64,000 nucleotides of DNA from Tubiluchus corallicola (taxonomy: Eukaryota; Priapulida; Priapulimorpha; Priapulimorphida; Tubiluchidae): NCBI GenBank assembly GCA_030141605.1, contig JAQGDQ010000252.1, positions 1 to 64,000 of the forward strand, read 5' to 3'. Both the position numbers and the translations under genes were made by a program. This document shows positions 1-9,984 of this stretch, piece by piece; within the stretch, counting starts at the first letter, position 1; each line of letters opens with the position of its first letter. The notes under the pieces are model-generated. The model had not been told where the DNA came from. It ran no database searches and was given only the letters and a program-made list of their open reading frames with translations.

Positions 1-2304
1 AATAATTACACTATTTTCATTGACATGTAATAACATATGCCTGTTGAGTTTGAGGAGAATCCATTAGTATTTAATTTCGGTTGACTTTGTGATGCTAGTT
101 CTTTTTTCCACACTGTCTCTCTTTGTATGTATACTTTGTTTACATTGTTCTTATAATGCTTGTAAGGACCAAGGAGACAAATAAATCATTATTTTGATGT
201 TTGAAGTTTTATTATTATCACATTCAGTACAATAGTAACATTCAACACATAGCTACAAACTAACCAAATTGTTACTTCATGCTGTGATATATGTTTCATA
301 CACTGTCATTACCGTAAAAGAATAATAATTGTACTGCAGTGGGCAAGAGAAGCAAAGGCTTGTATAAGCCCACTAGTAGCTGCCATGTGAACCAGATAAA
401 AGAAAGATCGATATGTGAGCAACAACGAAAAAAAGAACAGAGAGAAAGGTTAGATCACATAAGACCAGAAGAAGGATGTGTTAGTGGAAATAGTAGGAAA
501 AAAAAGACGATAAGTTGTGTGATGTTTACATCGGCTCTAAAAATTAATCATTGGTGTCTTTTTGGCATAATCTGTACTGAGACTGGGGTATGACTGGTGC
601 TATAGGTGTAGAATATTAAGAAGTATCGTATTTAATGAAAATCGTTGCTATTTATTTCTTTTAAAATATTTGAGTTGGCTGAATAGTTCTTAGCTCATCA
701 TTTATGTTATTCCAAAGGCTTTGACCAAAATTTGCAATGAATTGTTATGCCATGTCTGTTGTACAGAAGTTAATGACAAACTCATTCATTCTGGTTGCGT
801 AATGCTGATTATTAAGTTGGACGGGATCATTAAAGAATGTTGAAAAGAGATGATATTTAGTTTTGTACATGTATATAACTGTGTTCATTTGTTTTAAATC
901 GTCAACAATTAAAAATGTTAATAGTTTTGCAACATGTTGAACTCAGATGTTCTCTTTTTCAAAGATTACAAGTGATTTTAAGAAATTTTCTCTGGGTGAC
1001 TCGCAGTTTATTTATGTTAGTTGTATAAGTATGTCTGCAAATGAAACAACACTACGCTATGTGAAGTATGGTAATATTAAAAAATTGTACAAGGATATTA
1101 GATGTAAATTATAAATTAACAAAGCAATTTTTAATCCTACATATGACATTTATACCTTTTGAAATTTTACTTTTGATCATATCTATGTATGGCTTCCAAT
1201 CCCAAGGTGTTCATTTAGAATGATTCTCAAAAGTTTTATTAAATTTCCTGATTTTTAATGATTTCAATGAGGAATTATTAATTTTTATATCACTATTAAT
1301 AATTGGAATTTTCTTGTGTCTTGCTCTAAAAATGATCCAAATAGCATTTTTTGTAATTCGCTGTTACACTATTATACAATTAGATACATGTAAGTTACAT
1401 TACATTAAACAACACATAACCAAAATTGAGTAGGAGAATAAACGAAACCGACTAAAATGCCTAACAAGACATCTTGGCGGAGACAGAACATTCTTCTTTT
1501 CTGCTGCGTAAGGCGTCCGCTGAAAAAACGTTGATAGAAGAAACTGTACGGCGCTGTGTACGCTACTAGCCGAAGTAGGACACTTCTGCTAAAGCACATG
1601 TGCTAAATTTGCGGAAAATTAGTATCGTACAAGTAGGGATGTAGGGCACATAGCTCGCTACCCCCATTTACTTAGTAGAAAACAATTATTTGCCCAAGAG
1701 GTATTGTGAAACGAATCACCTGTCTGTGAAGCGAGACAAAGTAAAAAATGATACTATATCTTGAACAAATGTTGAAATCGCCTAAAAAGCGGGCTTATTT
1801 CACTTCAAAAAGATTAAAATTGAAGGCAGATTTAATATTGGGCGTTCTACTAGCTAGCTCAGAATAAATTTCTTTATTTTATCAGGTGTAAAATAAATTA
1901 TTCACCGTGTATTGACGTTTTTAATTATTATTATAAAATAAACAAAGACAACGGACGCTGCCAGTACGGTTAACGACTCAATTCTTGACCTGTCTCCAGT
2001 GTCCTACTTGGGTAGCCCATGTACGATGCGTTCTACTTGGGCTAGCCCGTGTACGCCAACTGTCCTACTTTGGCTAGTGTCTTACTCGGTTCCCAATATA
2101 AACTGTGGAGACCGTACGTAGAGAGTCTACTTTAGGGGAGGTAAGGCCTTGGGAATTTCGCCGAGTACGCTACGGAGCCTGGTGGCGAAGGCATTTGCAA
2201 GCAAATATAATGTTCATATTTTCAGTTTTGGTCTTGTTAAAACAATTTAATTTTAGTACATACTTTAAAGATCGTGTATTATTATTTATTGAAATTCCAA
2301 TTCC
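1..2304 (+). repeat. Left arm of a giant inverted repeat (palindrome)
   Basis: This arm is the reverse complement of 4029-6369. Coordinates mirror with a constant sum of 6370 over the outer 2 kb; for example 339-593 pairs with 5777-6031 and 1405-1599 with 4771-4965. Only scattered single-base differences were seen by eye, so identity is very high. The arm reaches base 1 of the window, so its true outer border may lie further left. Short open frames inside (84 and 64 codons) start at non-ATG codons in at least one case and resemble nothing I recognise. The mobile element 1546 to about 2095 lies within it. Confidence 0.93.
1546..2095 (-). mobile_element. TIR element copy inside the left arm
   Basis: This is the mirror copy of 4273-4824 and is related to the free-standing element at 9052-9977. 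It carries three roughly 30-bp subrepeats built on CCTACTT-GGCTAG-CCC-TGTACG between about 1995 and 2090. In this arm the inner end runs straight into the flanking sequence and lacks the 22-bp duplication seen in the right arm. Confidence 0.6.
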
Positions 2305-2500
2305 CCATCAGCCATTGATACCCATCACTCTTTCTTCACCCCCATCTGACAGCTATACAGACAAGGCATCTGCTGTCCCTCAGCAGTTGTTCCCGACTTG
2401 CGACACTTCAACCGAGCAATCTATCCCTCCAGCCACCGATTATTCTCATCCAAAACGCAGTCGTCGCCCCCCAAAATATCTTGCTGACTACGTTACCTGA
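2290..2500 (+). pseudogene. Retroelement polyprotein C-terminal tail (fragment)
   Basis: An open frame crosses from the left arm into the spacer and ends at 2500. Its last residues include KRSRRPPKYLADYVT, a basic stretch followed by RPP.YL.DYV. This resembles the extreme C-terminus of Ty3/gypsy-type integrases. The upstream half of the frame (2105-2290) is arm sequence and probably not coding. No reverse transcriptase or integrase core is present in the window. The assignment rests on one short motif, so it is tentative. Confidence 0.4.
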
Positions 2501-4028
2501 ATTTTATCCTTTTTCTTCAGCATTTACATATCAAGTTGTAAGTGTGCCTTTTTGACTTTATAATGTAAGTTACACACAAATTTTGTATTGCGTTTTTGAG
2601 TAACATAATCTGATAATATTACCCTAAATCATTGACTTCATGCTAAGTTCTATTATAGTCGTGCTGTATTTCTTTGGTCATCTGTGTATTACCTCTTTCT
2701 ATATGTAATACTGTGACAGCTATCGTTAATGCACTTATATTCGCATTACTGTACAAGCACATACTGTTTTCATGATAAACAACGTATATTAATGTTGTGC
2801 ACCGCACATCGTAGTTTGCGATAGTTCATAAATTACATTCTATATCGTTTGTATTGTAATTCTAGTTACAAGTTTCACCTTTTGTGTCATATTACATGTA
2901 TACTAAATGTTGTTTGATTTTGTTTCTAGCCATCGGTTAAGAAAAAGGAAAAGAGAAGCCGCGCCAGTATACATGCGTGTTGTTAGTTTTATCAACTTTA
3001 CCCCTTTTGCAAAGTTGCTCTTTTGTTTTCAGCTTCTTTGTTTTTCGGGTTGCGCTCATCTTTCTAGTTATAACCTCGTTGCTTTGCGAGTTACAATAAA
3101 GTTGTTAAATTTATTCTTGTCGTCTTGGTGTTTGAGACAAAGCTGGAACATTCTTTAATTAATGGCGCTGCATGAAGCCAAAAAAGTTTCAGTTTAGACC
3201 ATTGAGGGCAGAAAGAAGTTCCAAGAAAGGCAACAACTAAAAGCACTTGGCTGATCTTGAAAGGTGATCCAGAAATACCTTTAGTTTCGTATCATTTTAC
3301 AAAATACCTACTAGAAGCCCTAAATTCATTATTACATCACTATGTGAAGACTGGATATACGAGTATGTACGGGTTGATTCATGTCTGAATTTCACAAAAA
3401 TTGGTAGCAGTACCCACATCCTGAGTAGCATTACAGTGGGATGATGTTTGGCCCAAATTTTGCATAAAACAAACGTCACACCAACCGTGTAGAAATCTTT
3501 TTACTAAACGTAATTAGTAGACCCCAACCAGTCCCAATGTGAACTCCCCAACTTGCAAGAATACATTGCGAAAACGGTTTTCCATCGTTAACTACATGAT
3601 AATGTGCGAAAATGTCATCTTCACTGCGTTGCCCACATCTACCATCATTAAGATCAACTGCACAGCATTACTAAACTTGCAATGTTGTAAAAATAATAAA
3701 ATTTAATTATACATGTAAAAGGTTTCTCATAAATCAATAACAAAGTTTAAATAAGCAGACTTGCTGTGTTTCGTTGAACAGTTTCAAAACATAGATCGAC
3801 AGATAGCCTAGATAAGTACGCTTTTCGCCCATAGTTGTCTCTTGTTAAACCTCTGTTAATTGTTATATCCAACGTTCTCTCTCGCGTTTTACATTTATGT
3901 TCTCTCTCTAAAGTTGTCTCTCAAGTGGAAGTGCCGCCTAGCGACAGTTTAAAATTATTTTGATAAGTCTATACAGGTCTGTTTTGACATTTAAATTAGT
4001 TTGATATGGTGACAAATATATTTCTAAC
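2501..4028. other. Palindrome spacer, no intact gene
   Basis: This is single-copy sequence between the two arms. The part from 2510 to about 3150 resembles a long terminal repeat. It follows the retroelement-like tail, has an AATAAA near 3097, and ends close to a TGGCGCTG that could be a primer-binding site. No matching second LTR is present, so this is only a suggestion. The rest (3160-4028) is AT-rich with no supported gene. Confidence 0.35.
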
Positions 4029-6369
4029 GGGAATTGGAATTTCAATAAATAATAATACACGATCTTTTTAAAGCATGTACTACAAATTTAAATTGTTTTA
4101 AACTTTTAAGTTAATCTCAAAACTGAAAATATGAACATTATATTTGCAAGCAAATGCCTTCGCCACCAGGCTCCGTAGCGTACTCGGCGAAATTCCTAAG
4201 GCCTTACCTCCCCTAAAGTAGACTCTCTACGTACGGTCTCCACAGTTTATATTGGGAACCGAGTAAGTTTTTGTTGGGAACCGAGTAAGACACTAGCCAA
4301 AGTAGGACAGTTGGCGTACACGGGCTAGCCCAAGTAGAACGCATCGTACATGGGCTACCCAAGTAGGACACTGGAGATAGGTCAAGAATTGAGTCGTTAA
4401 CCGTACTGGCAGCGTCCGTTGTCTTTGTTTATTTTATAATAATAATTAAAAACGTCAATACACGGTGAATAATTTATTTTACACCTGATAAAATAAAGAA
4501 ATTTATTCTGAGCTAGCTAGTAGAACGCCCAATATTAAATCTGCCTTCAATTTTAATCTTTTTGAAGTGAAATAAGCCCGCTTTTTAGGCGATTTCAACA
4601 TTTGTTCAAGATATAGTATCATTTTTTACTTTGTCTCGCTTCACAGACAGGTGATTCGTTTCACAATACCTCTTGGGCAAATAATTGTTTTCTACTAAGT
4701 AAATGGGGGTAGCGAGCTATGTGCCCTACATCCCTACTTGTACGATACTAATTTTCCGCAAATTTAGCACATGTGCTTTAGCAGAAGTGTCCTACTTCGG
4801 CTAGTAGCGTACACAGCGCCCTACAGTTTCTTCTATCAACGTTTTTTCAGCGGACGCCTTACGCGGCAGAAAAGAAGAATGTTCTGTCTCCGCCAAGATG
4901 TCTTGTTAGGCATTTTAGTCGGTTTCGTTTATTCTCCTACTCAATTTTGGTTATGTGTTGTTTAATGTAATGTAACTTACATGTATCTAATTGTATAATA
5001 GTGTAACAGCGAATTACAAAAAATGCTATTTGGATCATTTTTAGAGCAAGACACAAGAAAATTCCAATTATTAATAGTGATATAAAAATTAATAATTCCT
5101 CATTGAAATCATTAAAAATCAGGAAATTTAATAAAACTTTTGAGAATCATTCTAAATGAACACCTTGGGATTGGAAGCCATACATAGATATGATCAAAAG
5201 TAAAATTTCAAAAGGTATAAATGTCATATGTAGGATTAAAAATTGCTTTGTTAATTTATAATTTACATCTAATATCCTTGTACAATTTTTTAATATTACC
5301 ATACTTCACATAGCGTAGTGTTGTTTCATTTGCAGACATACTTATACAACTAACATAAATAAACTGCGAGTCACCCAGAGAAAATTTCTTAAAATCACTT
5401 GTAATCTTTGAAAAAGAGAACATCTGAGTTCAACATGTTGCAAAACTATTAACATTTTTAATTGTTGACGATTTAAAACAAATGAACACAGTTATATACA
5501 TGTACAAAACTAAATATCATCTCTTTTCAACATTCTTTAATGATCCCGTCCAACTTAATAATCAGCATTACGCAACCAGAATGAATGAGTTTGTCATTAA
5601 CTTCTGTACAACAGACATGGCATAACAATTCATTGCAAATTTTGGTCAAAGCCTTTGGAATAACATAAATGATGAGCTAAGAACTATTCAGCCAACTCAA
5701 ATATTTTAAAAGAAATAAATAGCAACGATTTTCATTAAATACGATACTTCTTAATATTCTACACCTATAGCACCAGTCATACCCCAGTCTCAGTACAGAT
5801 TATGCCAAAAAGACACCAATGATTAATTTTTAGAGCCGATGTAAACATCACACAACTTATCGTCTTTTTTTTCCTACTATTTCCACTAACACATCCTTCT
5901 TCTGGTCTTATGTGATCTAACCTTTCTCTCTGTTCTTTTTTTCGTTGTTGCTCACATATCGATCTTTCTTTTATCTGGTTCACATGGCAGCTACTAGTGG
6001 GCTTATACAAGCCTTTGCTTCTCTTGCCCACTGCAGTACAATTATTATTCTTTTACGGTAATGACAGTGTATGAAACATATATCACAGCATGAAGTAACA
6101 ATTTGGTTAGTTTGTAGCTATGTGTTGAATGTTACTATTGTACTGAATGTGATAATAATAAAACTTCAAACATCAAAATAATGATTTATTTGTCTCCTTG
6201 GTCCTTACAAGCATTATAAGAACAATGTAAACAAAGTATACATACAAAGAGAGACAGTGTGGAAAAAAGAACTAGCATCACAAAGTCAACCGAAATTAAA
6301 TACTAATGGATTCTCCTCAAACTCAACAGGCATATGTTATTACATGTCAATGAAAATAGTGTAATTATT
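4029..6369 (-). repeat. Right arm of the giant inverted repeat
   Basis: This is the reverse complement of 1-2304. The two arms differ by a 22-bp local duplication near 4255-4290 (the motif GGGAACCGAGTAAG occurs twice here and once on the left) and by a few substitutions, for example near 1555/4815 and in the 64-codon frame (Q versus R). The outer border falls at 6369, followed by a T-rich tract and unrelated sequence. Confidence 0.93.
4273..4824 (+). mobile_element. 552-bp TIR element nested in the right arm
   Basis: The left end begins GTTGGGAACCGAGTAAG.CACTAGCC and the right end is the inverse of GTAGGGCGCTGTGTACGC.ACTAGCC, so the terminal inverted repeats are imperfect, about 35 bp. Flanks AGTTTTT (4266-4272) and AGTTTCT (4825-4831) look like a 7-bp target duplication with one mismatch. 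There is no coding capacity, so it is probably a non-autonomous DNA transposon. Its relative at 9052-9977 has the same ends. Confidence 0.6.
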
Positions 6370-6489: not shown

Positions 6490-6912
6490 CAAGTCAGCTA
6501 GTCGGTCATAATAGTGACTGGCTAGCAAATTAGTCTGTCAGCCAGTCAGCCAGTCATGCAGTCAGTGATCAGCCAGTTAGTCGGTCAGAACAACAGGCAG
6601 ACAGTAAGTAAGTGAGTCAAAAGCAAGCCTGCCAGTTAGCCAACTAGTCAATTATAGCAAAGCAGTCAATAATTAAGTAGGGCAGTCAGACATGGACAAG
6701 ACAGTGAATCAGTTACTCAAACTATCAGTCAGCCAGAAGCTATTGTAACAAACTAGTTAAAAAGGGAAACATAAAGATGCACAAAGCAGTTAGTCAGTTT
6801 CAGTCAACCTTGCTTATTATTGCCTTGCTAGATAGCCAGTTTGGTACAGTTGATGCGTTACTGAGCTGGTTGTTTGACAATCAGTTTGTCAGTCAGTCAG
6901 TCAGTCAGTCAG
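6490..6912. repeat. Degenerate CAGT/CCAGT tetranucleotide tract
   Basis: Imperfect repeats of CAGT, CCAGT and TCGGT fill much of this interval. A pure (CAGT)n run lies at about 6890-6912. The sequence between 6912 and 7460 is AT-rich. It ends near 7330-7365 in AAATAAATAAAATGAAATTGAAATTG, the kind of tail left by a LINE or SINE insertion. Confidence 0.8.
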
Positions 6913-7464
6913 AAATTGATCAGAATAAGTGACAGTTTTTATAGTTCATAAGATTCATGTAACTGAGTTGTCAACTCTGCCACTTAAAACCCACAGATTT
7001 GAATTTTGTATTGAACATGTTGAATCATAATATTCCAGATCGTTATTGATGTTAAAAGTGAAAAGAAATGTTGAAAATAATTTTCAGGTCTAGATAATCA
7101 CTCTCTTAACTTCAAGGAAATATATGGACTAAACCAAAAAGTTGGACAAACAACTAGTTGACAAAAGCTACTATGTTATTCAATCATGCAGTCAGTTAAT
7201 CCTTCACAAAGCTTGTTAGTGAGCATGTCTCACTCACTGTATATGTTAATTTGACAGTTGGTTATCGATGGTAACAATGATCATCCATGCTCAGTATTCT
7301 CAGTATATAATGATATACTATTGATGTGAAATAAATAAAATGAAATTGAAATTGAATTATACCTATAGTTAAAATTTGTCCACTTATATATAATTTGATG
7401 ATGTTGATAATAACAATTATTCTTATTTAAAATTTAATGGATTATGCTGCAAGAGTAGAGCTGT

Positions 7465-9051: not shown

Positions 9052-9977
9052 GTTGGGCGCAGAGTAACCCATTAGCGGAAGTAGGACAATTGGCATACAT
9101 GGGCTGGCGCAAGTAGGACGTGTCGTACATGGGCTGCCCAAGTAGGACACTAGAGACAGGTCGCGAATTGAGCTGTTAAGTGTACTGGCACGGTCCATCG
9201 TCCTTGTTTATGTAATAATAATTAAAAACGTCCATACACGTTGAATAATTTATTATACATCTAATAAAATAAAAGAATTTTATTCTGAGCTGGTAGAACG
9301 GACAATATTAAATTTGGCTTCGATATTAATGTTGTTGAAGTGAAATAAACGCACTTTTTAGGCGATTTCAACATTTGTTTAAGGTGTATCATTTTCTATT
9401 TTGTTTCGCTTTATATACAGGTGATCCGTTCGACAAATATATGTTATCTCCTAAGTAAACATTCTAGCGACCTATGTGCCCTACATGGCCTAACGAGCCA
9501 TGTACAACAGTGCCCTACATGTTACAATACTGTTGATATTATTAAAACTAATTGTCTTTGATTTTCCTAAAAAGTTAAAAATTACTTTTTTGTGTTGTGA
9601 AGGCTCAGCATCATCTGTCTTATTTTTAAACTTTCAGTTATTTCTATAATAACTGTGTGCATAATTTCTTTCTTTAAAGCATTAGATACTTAGTTTAATG
9701 TTATGATGATTTTAATGGAGCTAATAATACTGATGATAGTATTGTAAAAAATACATTAATTTTGTAAATTGTCATCCATCATTATTATAAAGTTACTTTT
9801 TCTGTAAAACAAATTTAGTTTTAAGTTTTATTATGTCATTATAATTTTCGATTCCCGACAAAAATCGCCAGGGCCCTATTTGGACTGCCCATGTACGACA
9901 CTGCTTTTCCGCAAATTTAGCACACGCGTTTTACCAGAAGTGTCCTACTTCGGCTAGTGGCTTACTCGGTGCCCTAC
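9052..9977 (+). mobile_element. 926-bp TIR DNA element, free-standing copy
   Basis: The terminal inverted repeats begin GTTGGGCGCAGAGTAA on the left and, inverted, GTAGGGCACCGAGTAAG on the right. Both then run on to a (A/T)TAGC(C/G)GAAGTAGGACA block. The element is flanked by exact 7-bp direct repeats ATCTACT (9045-9051 and 9978-9984). About 540 bp matches the copies in the palindrome arms. The extra ~370 bp lies at about 9535-9890 and is AT-rich. There is no transposase, so it is non-autonomous. Confidence 0.7.
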
Positions 9978-9984
9978 ATCTACT

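Follow-up and report, generated by a model that had tools for sequence, protein, structure and literature searches.

The giant palindrome that opens the 64,000-nt stretch of DNA analysed here (hereafter the window) is, with a probability that we put at roughly 0.85, a fold-back chimera at the end of a contig, an artefact rather than a biological structure. We favour this reading because of the exact contig-end position of the palindrome, the recurrence of fold-backs at other contig starts, the mirroring of contig C1667, the adapters and fused reads present in the assembly and the confinement of the gaps to the left arm. Base 1 of the window is also base 1 of the 325,481-bp contig C1047 (the window corresponds to C1047:1-64000), which belongs to a nanopore-based assembly of 343.5 Mb in 2344 contigs. 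The sequence-only reading had remarked that the left border coincides with the window edge and that an assembly fold-back needed to be excluded; it is a fold-back chimera that is now best supported.

Geometry and content of the two arms

By BLASTN, window positions 4029-6369 match positions 2305-1 in reverse with 98.16% identity over 2341 columns, the two arms being separated by a loop of 1,723 bp. The giant near-perfect palindrome with 2.3-kb arms described earlier from the letters is real in the sequence (98.2% identity, 1.72-kb spacer). It lies far above chance, and no other long inverted repeat was found in the 64,000-nt window. Its features are the following:

1-2305, plus strand: left arm, inverted copy of 6369-4029, truncated at the contig start
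190-1355, plus strand: dispersed repeat family A, in both arms; copies elsewhere are 77-80% identical
1545-2101, plus strand: MITE-like dispersed family B with inverted termini, in both arms; copies are 83-87% identical
2295-2305, plus strand: junction microhomology TTCCAATTCCC, common to the retroelement and the inner end of the arm
2295-3167, plus strand: 3′ end of an LTR retroelement, a young 5.96-kb element whose 5′ side is truncated exactly at the junction
2962-3167, plus strand: 3′ LTR of 206 bp, CGCCAG...TGGCG, followed by CTG
3168-4028, no strand assigned: remaining loop, 861 bp, low-copy apart from one short dispersed repeat at about 3790-3950
4029-6369, minus strand: right arm, continuous with the remainder of the contig
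4029-4039, minus strand: inverted partner of the 11-mer, reading GGGAATTGGAA on the plus strand; putative fold-back priming site
4268-4289, minus strand: 22-bp local duplication, in the right arm only

Since the contig end cuts the left arm short, position 6369 is a mere mirror of this end and not a demonstrated arm border, and the original arm may be longer than 2305 bp. The right arm is probably the true genomic copy, and the left arm is probably the chimeric one. No further near-identical copy of the arms was found in the assembly, nor was there a second-haplotype copy of the arms, the loop or the right flank.

Seven substitutions (left-arm positions 1505, 1549, 1992, 2151, 2199, 2200 and 2262) and nine gaps, with 36 bases altogether and the 22-bp copy among them, separate the arms, which agrees with the earlier description of a few differing bases plus a 22-bp duplication. 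The right arm is free of gaps; all nine fall in the left. Left-arm positions 1-1504 are identical to their mirror, every substitution and gap falling within 1505-2266, so that the mismatches are restricted to the inner 0.8 kb; the mirror sum of 6370 that had been given for the outer 2 kb applies to the outer part and fails elsewhere. The small gaps are not independent events since they are clustered at 2230-2266. Nanopore reads of inverted duplications miss bases past the junction (PMC7229812), for which reason gaps in the left arm only are to be expected; a genuine palindrome would be affected in the same way. True allelic variation might account for the 22-bp difference. An additional copy of family B, at window positions 9053-9978, was used to look for the ancestral state at the arm differences; only position 1992 was informative, and here the left arm has the family base.

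Each arm is a mosaic in which low-copy DNA is combined with two dispersed repeats unrelated to each other. That the arms might be the terminal inverted repeats of some large element had been one of the earlier suggestions, a transposon or an element of the foldback type being conceivable, and long near-identical inverted arms do flank a spacer here. We regard this reading as scarcely tenable. The only recurring pieces of the arm are 190-1355 and 1545-2101, found at separate places, and the pair occurs nowhere else in the assembly. The spacer consists of a truncated LTR element and low-copy DNA and contains no recognizable transposase, the outer ends are undefined, and the inner edge is an 11-bp microhomology inside a retroelement rather than an element boundary. 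A transposon with long terminal inverted repeats was rejected because the whole arm was not found as a unit at a second locus in the assembly.

In the remainder of the window, a low-complexity tract at 6500-6920, in which degenerate CAGTCAGC-type units are abundant, recurs at many other places of the genome, and exons of CNOT1 lie on the minus strand between 50.9 and 62.6 kb, as would suit an animal-type eukaryotic genome. A structured RNA was rejected, with no Rfam matches in the window.

A junction within a young LTR retroelement

The retroelement-like tail that had been noticed in the spacer was confirmed: it comes from a young LTR retroelement, of which the 3′ end is present, and the end of the polyprotein lies at 2295-2500. 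Ten copies elsewhere match this 3′ end at 98-100%, and the 206-bp LTR is present at both ends of the 5.96-kb copies (two LTRs, multiple copies). The polyprotein of a full copy matches the zinc-binding integrase domain Integrase_H2C2 with an E-value of 2.9e-5 and 24.5 bits, slightly below the Pfam cut-off of 25.5. Full copies were seen in contigs C2327, C4, C2110 and C679. Two properties are unusual for an LTR element: the LTR ends are CGCCAG...TGGCG and not TG...CA, and the target duplications are apparently 3 bp long (CTC, CAG, CAA, CTG). The CTG following the 3′ LTR in the window is a probable target duplication of this kind. The assembly was searched for the missing 5′ half of the element by the CTG expected at its flank, without success: the pattern matched two contigs only, C679, which itself has CTG as its 3′ flank, and the self-mirroring C1667, with an LTR different from that of the window.

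Homology to the retroelement starts at position 2295 and homology to the arm stops at 2305, leaving an overlap of 11 bp. Around this 11-mer the full retroelement copies read GTCTGCCTTTCCAATTCCCCATCAG and the right arm in reverse reads TTTATTGAAATTCCAATTCCCGTTAG, and the left arm changes from the TTTATTGAAATTCCAATTCCCGTTAG to the GTCTGCCTTTCCAATTCCCCATCAG version at the common 11-mer. The sequence TTCCAATTCCC occurs once in the window and its reverse complement likewise once, at 4029-4039; of 4000 random 11-mers from the window, 20 had an inverted partner no more than 3 kb away. Such an 11-bp junction is the scar to be expected when a 3′ end folds back, anneals 1.7 kb away on its own strand and is extended. 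Two marks of in vitro chimeras, an inverted arrangement of joined segments less than 10 kb apart and short complementarity at the junction, are both present here.

The palindrome might also be a genuine inverted duplication. In that case a double-strand break in the retroelement would have been resected, and the exposed strand would have paired with itself at the 11-bp inverted repeat and been copied; the product would be fixed or heterozygous, and the assembler would have halted inside it. A matching anatomy is known from human germ-line inverted duplications, where spacers measure 766-70,466 bp with a median of 3,428 (Hermetz 2014, PMC3907307) and junctions carry 2-8 bp of inverted microhomology (PMC3907307). 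In both cases an arm is followed by a few-kb single-copy spacer and an inverted arm, with microhomology at the junction and loss of the sequence beyond; the human cases, however, are large chromosomal duplications documented by array CGH and sequenced junctions, whereas the present palindrome terminates outward at a contig end and is seen in assembly sequence alone. The seven substitutions and the 22-bp unit separating the arms would also speak for a genuine duplication, as would the consideration that a real palindrome would likewise break assemblies and place base 1 within an arm. We nevertheless consider such an event unlikely: the palindrome sits exactly where its contig ends, the assembly contains several contigs that fold back as well as reads that are fused or were left untrimmed, the gaps are confined to one arm, and the outer 1.5 kb of the palindrome are 100% identical while the inner 0.8 kb are not. 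Because the gaps are one-sided and fold-backs recur at the ends of other contigs, we also prefer an artefact to a palindrome that is young or kept alike by gene conversion.

A head-to-head join of two haplotypes or contig ends by the assembler, without any chimeric molecule, is very improbable. The assembly does contain redundant contigs (C2264/C1787/C2138 and C1677/C1338), identical across the 3-4 kb compared, yet the arm is absent from any second contig, and a chance join in the graph needs no microhomology, whereas the one observed is an exact 11-bp inverted match in a unique context.

Fold-backs, adapters and fused reads elsewhere in the assembly

The first 6 kb of 20 other contigs, three of them with masked stretches, served as a sample of contig starts. 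Terminal inverted repeats were present in two of the 20, namely C933 (1-878/2000-1123, 100%) and C1618 (40-945/2971-2066, 98%). No inverted repeat of this kind was present in nine 6-kb tiles taken from inside the window or in another 34 interior loci (120 kb in total), and the comparison of 2/20 contig starts with 0/43 interior stretches gives a Fisher p of ~0.1, calculated by hand on a small sample. A third case, C1667 (78,361 bp), turned up incidentally in a search on another matter. Four pairs of mirrored points were sampled in this contig (the contig ends and 15, 30 and 36 kb), and each pair consists of 100% reverse complements; both of its ends are the same sequence since the end pair is among them. 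The arms of the C1618 fold-back (1-2971) differ almost only in or beside a high-copy 260-bp repeat (288-548), as if they had been mis-polished with reads from other copies of the repeat; when its junction was compared for microhomology, the local paralogues were highly diverged. Three contigs have oddly round lengths, C243, C281 and C611 measuring exactly 12,500, 125,000 and 25,000 bp.

The first 39 bases of C1618 contain, at positions 16-39, the Oxford Nanopore adapter sequence TACTTCGTTCAGTTACGTATTGCT, and the inverted repeat begins directly after it. This 24-mer is included in the nanopore start adapter AATGTACTTCGTTCAGTTACGTATTGCT (PMC7490894). It occurs 77 times in the assembly with up to two mismatches, against none for the reversed control, and 23 of the occurrences are no further than 75 bp from a contig start, where 0.04 would be expected. 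At four places, inside contigs or at their ends, an end adapter is directly followed by the tail of a start adapter (C71:25373, C178:15012, C611:2 and C1969:42207), and reads fused from two molecules have therefore been incorporated into contigs. The same class of artefact as proposed for the window is thus found elsewhere in the assembly, both as fold-backs (C933, C1618, C1667) and as fused reads (C71, C178, C611, C1969). No adapter was found at the start of C1047.

Origin of the fold-back and consequences

The C1047 fold-back most likely arose in the preparation of the DNA or of the library, as an inverted chimera of the multiple displacement amplification (MDA) type. A single strand, part of the nanopore library or of the DNA as extracted or amplified, would have ended within the LTR retroelement at 2295 and folded back, its 3′ end GGGAATTGGAA pairing with TTCCAATTCCC at 4039-4029 on the same strand. 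A polymerase would then have re-copied the strand outward, and the product would read, in this order, right arm, 1.72-kb loop and the right arm again, inverted. At the multi-copy retroelement the assembler would have broken off, the chimeric read becoming the final stretch of C1047 and its end becoming base 1 of the contig. The arms, the loop, the exact 11-mer, the position at the contig end, the other fold-backs and the adapter-bearing and fused reads are present in the assembly as such; synthesis of this copy in vitro and incorporation of a chimeric read are what we infer. As for the loop and the primed junction, a fold-back made by a polymerase would account for them better than two strands read successively since there is neither an adapter nor a zero-length loop.

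Chimeras formed during MDA are inverted in 85% of cases, mostly within 10 kb (Lasken and Stockwell 2007, PMC1855051); where the inversion spans no more than 10 kb, 93.5% of them have complementary junction bases of 2-21 nt (PMC1855051). The C1047 palindrome resembles them in its nearby inverted copy (1.7 kb, below 10 kb) and in its short complementarity (11 nt, within the 2-21 nt range). In contrast to them (PMC1855051), it is seen in an assembly and not in a read. Palindromic long reads have been described alongside MDA inverted chimeras (Warris 2018, PMC6218980). In ligation-based nanopore libraries, chimeric reads with inverted repeats make up 0.18-7.33% of the reads (Xie 2026, PMC13141652) and are the commonest type of chimera (PMC13141652). 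The present nanopore assembly is similar in that it retains adapters of the ligation type; it differs by the 1.7-kb loop and the primed, adapter-free junction, two consecutive reads taken as one being suspected in those libraries (PMC13141652).

At face value, the palindrome could pass for a transposon whose terminal repeats are giant or for an inverted duplication of recent date. Its recognition as a contig-end fold-back means that it should be excluded from repeat libraries and from counts of duplications. The assembly as a whole is to be flagged, as adapter-bearing contig ends, fused reads within contigs and at least one contig found mirrored wherever it was sampled can yield both false duplications and false inversions. 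We attach a small probability, slightly below that of a genuine duplication in general, to the reading in which the fold-back duplication is genuine and recent, having arisen in the germ line of an invertebrate by priming at 11 bp within a young retroelement and leaving a 1.7-kb loop. If the other terminal fold-backs were real as well, the genome would be unusually rich in fold-back palindromes.
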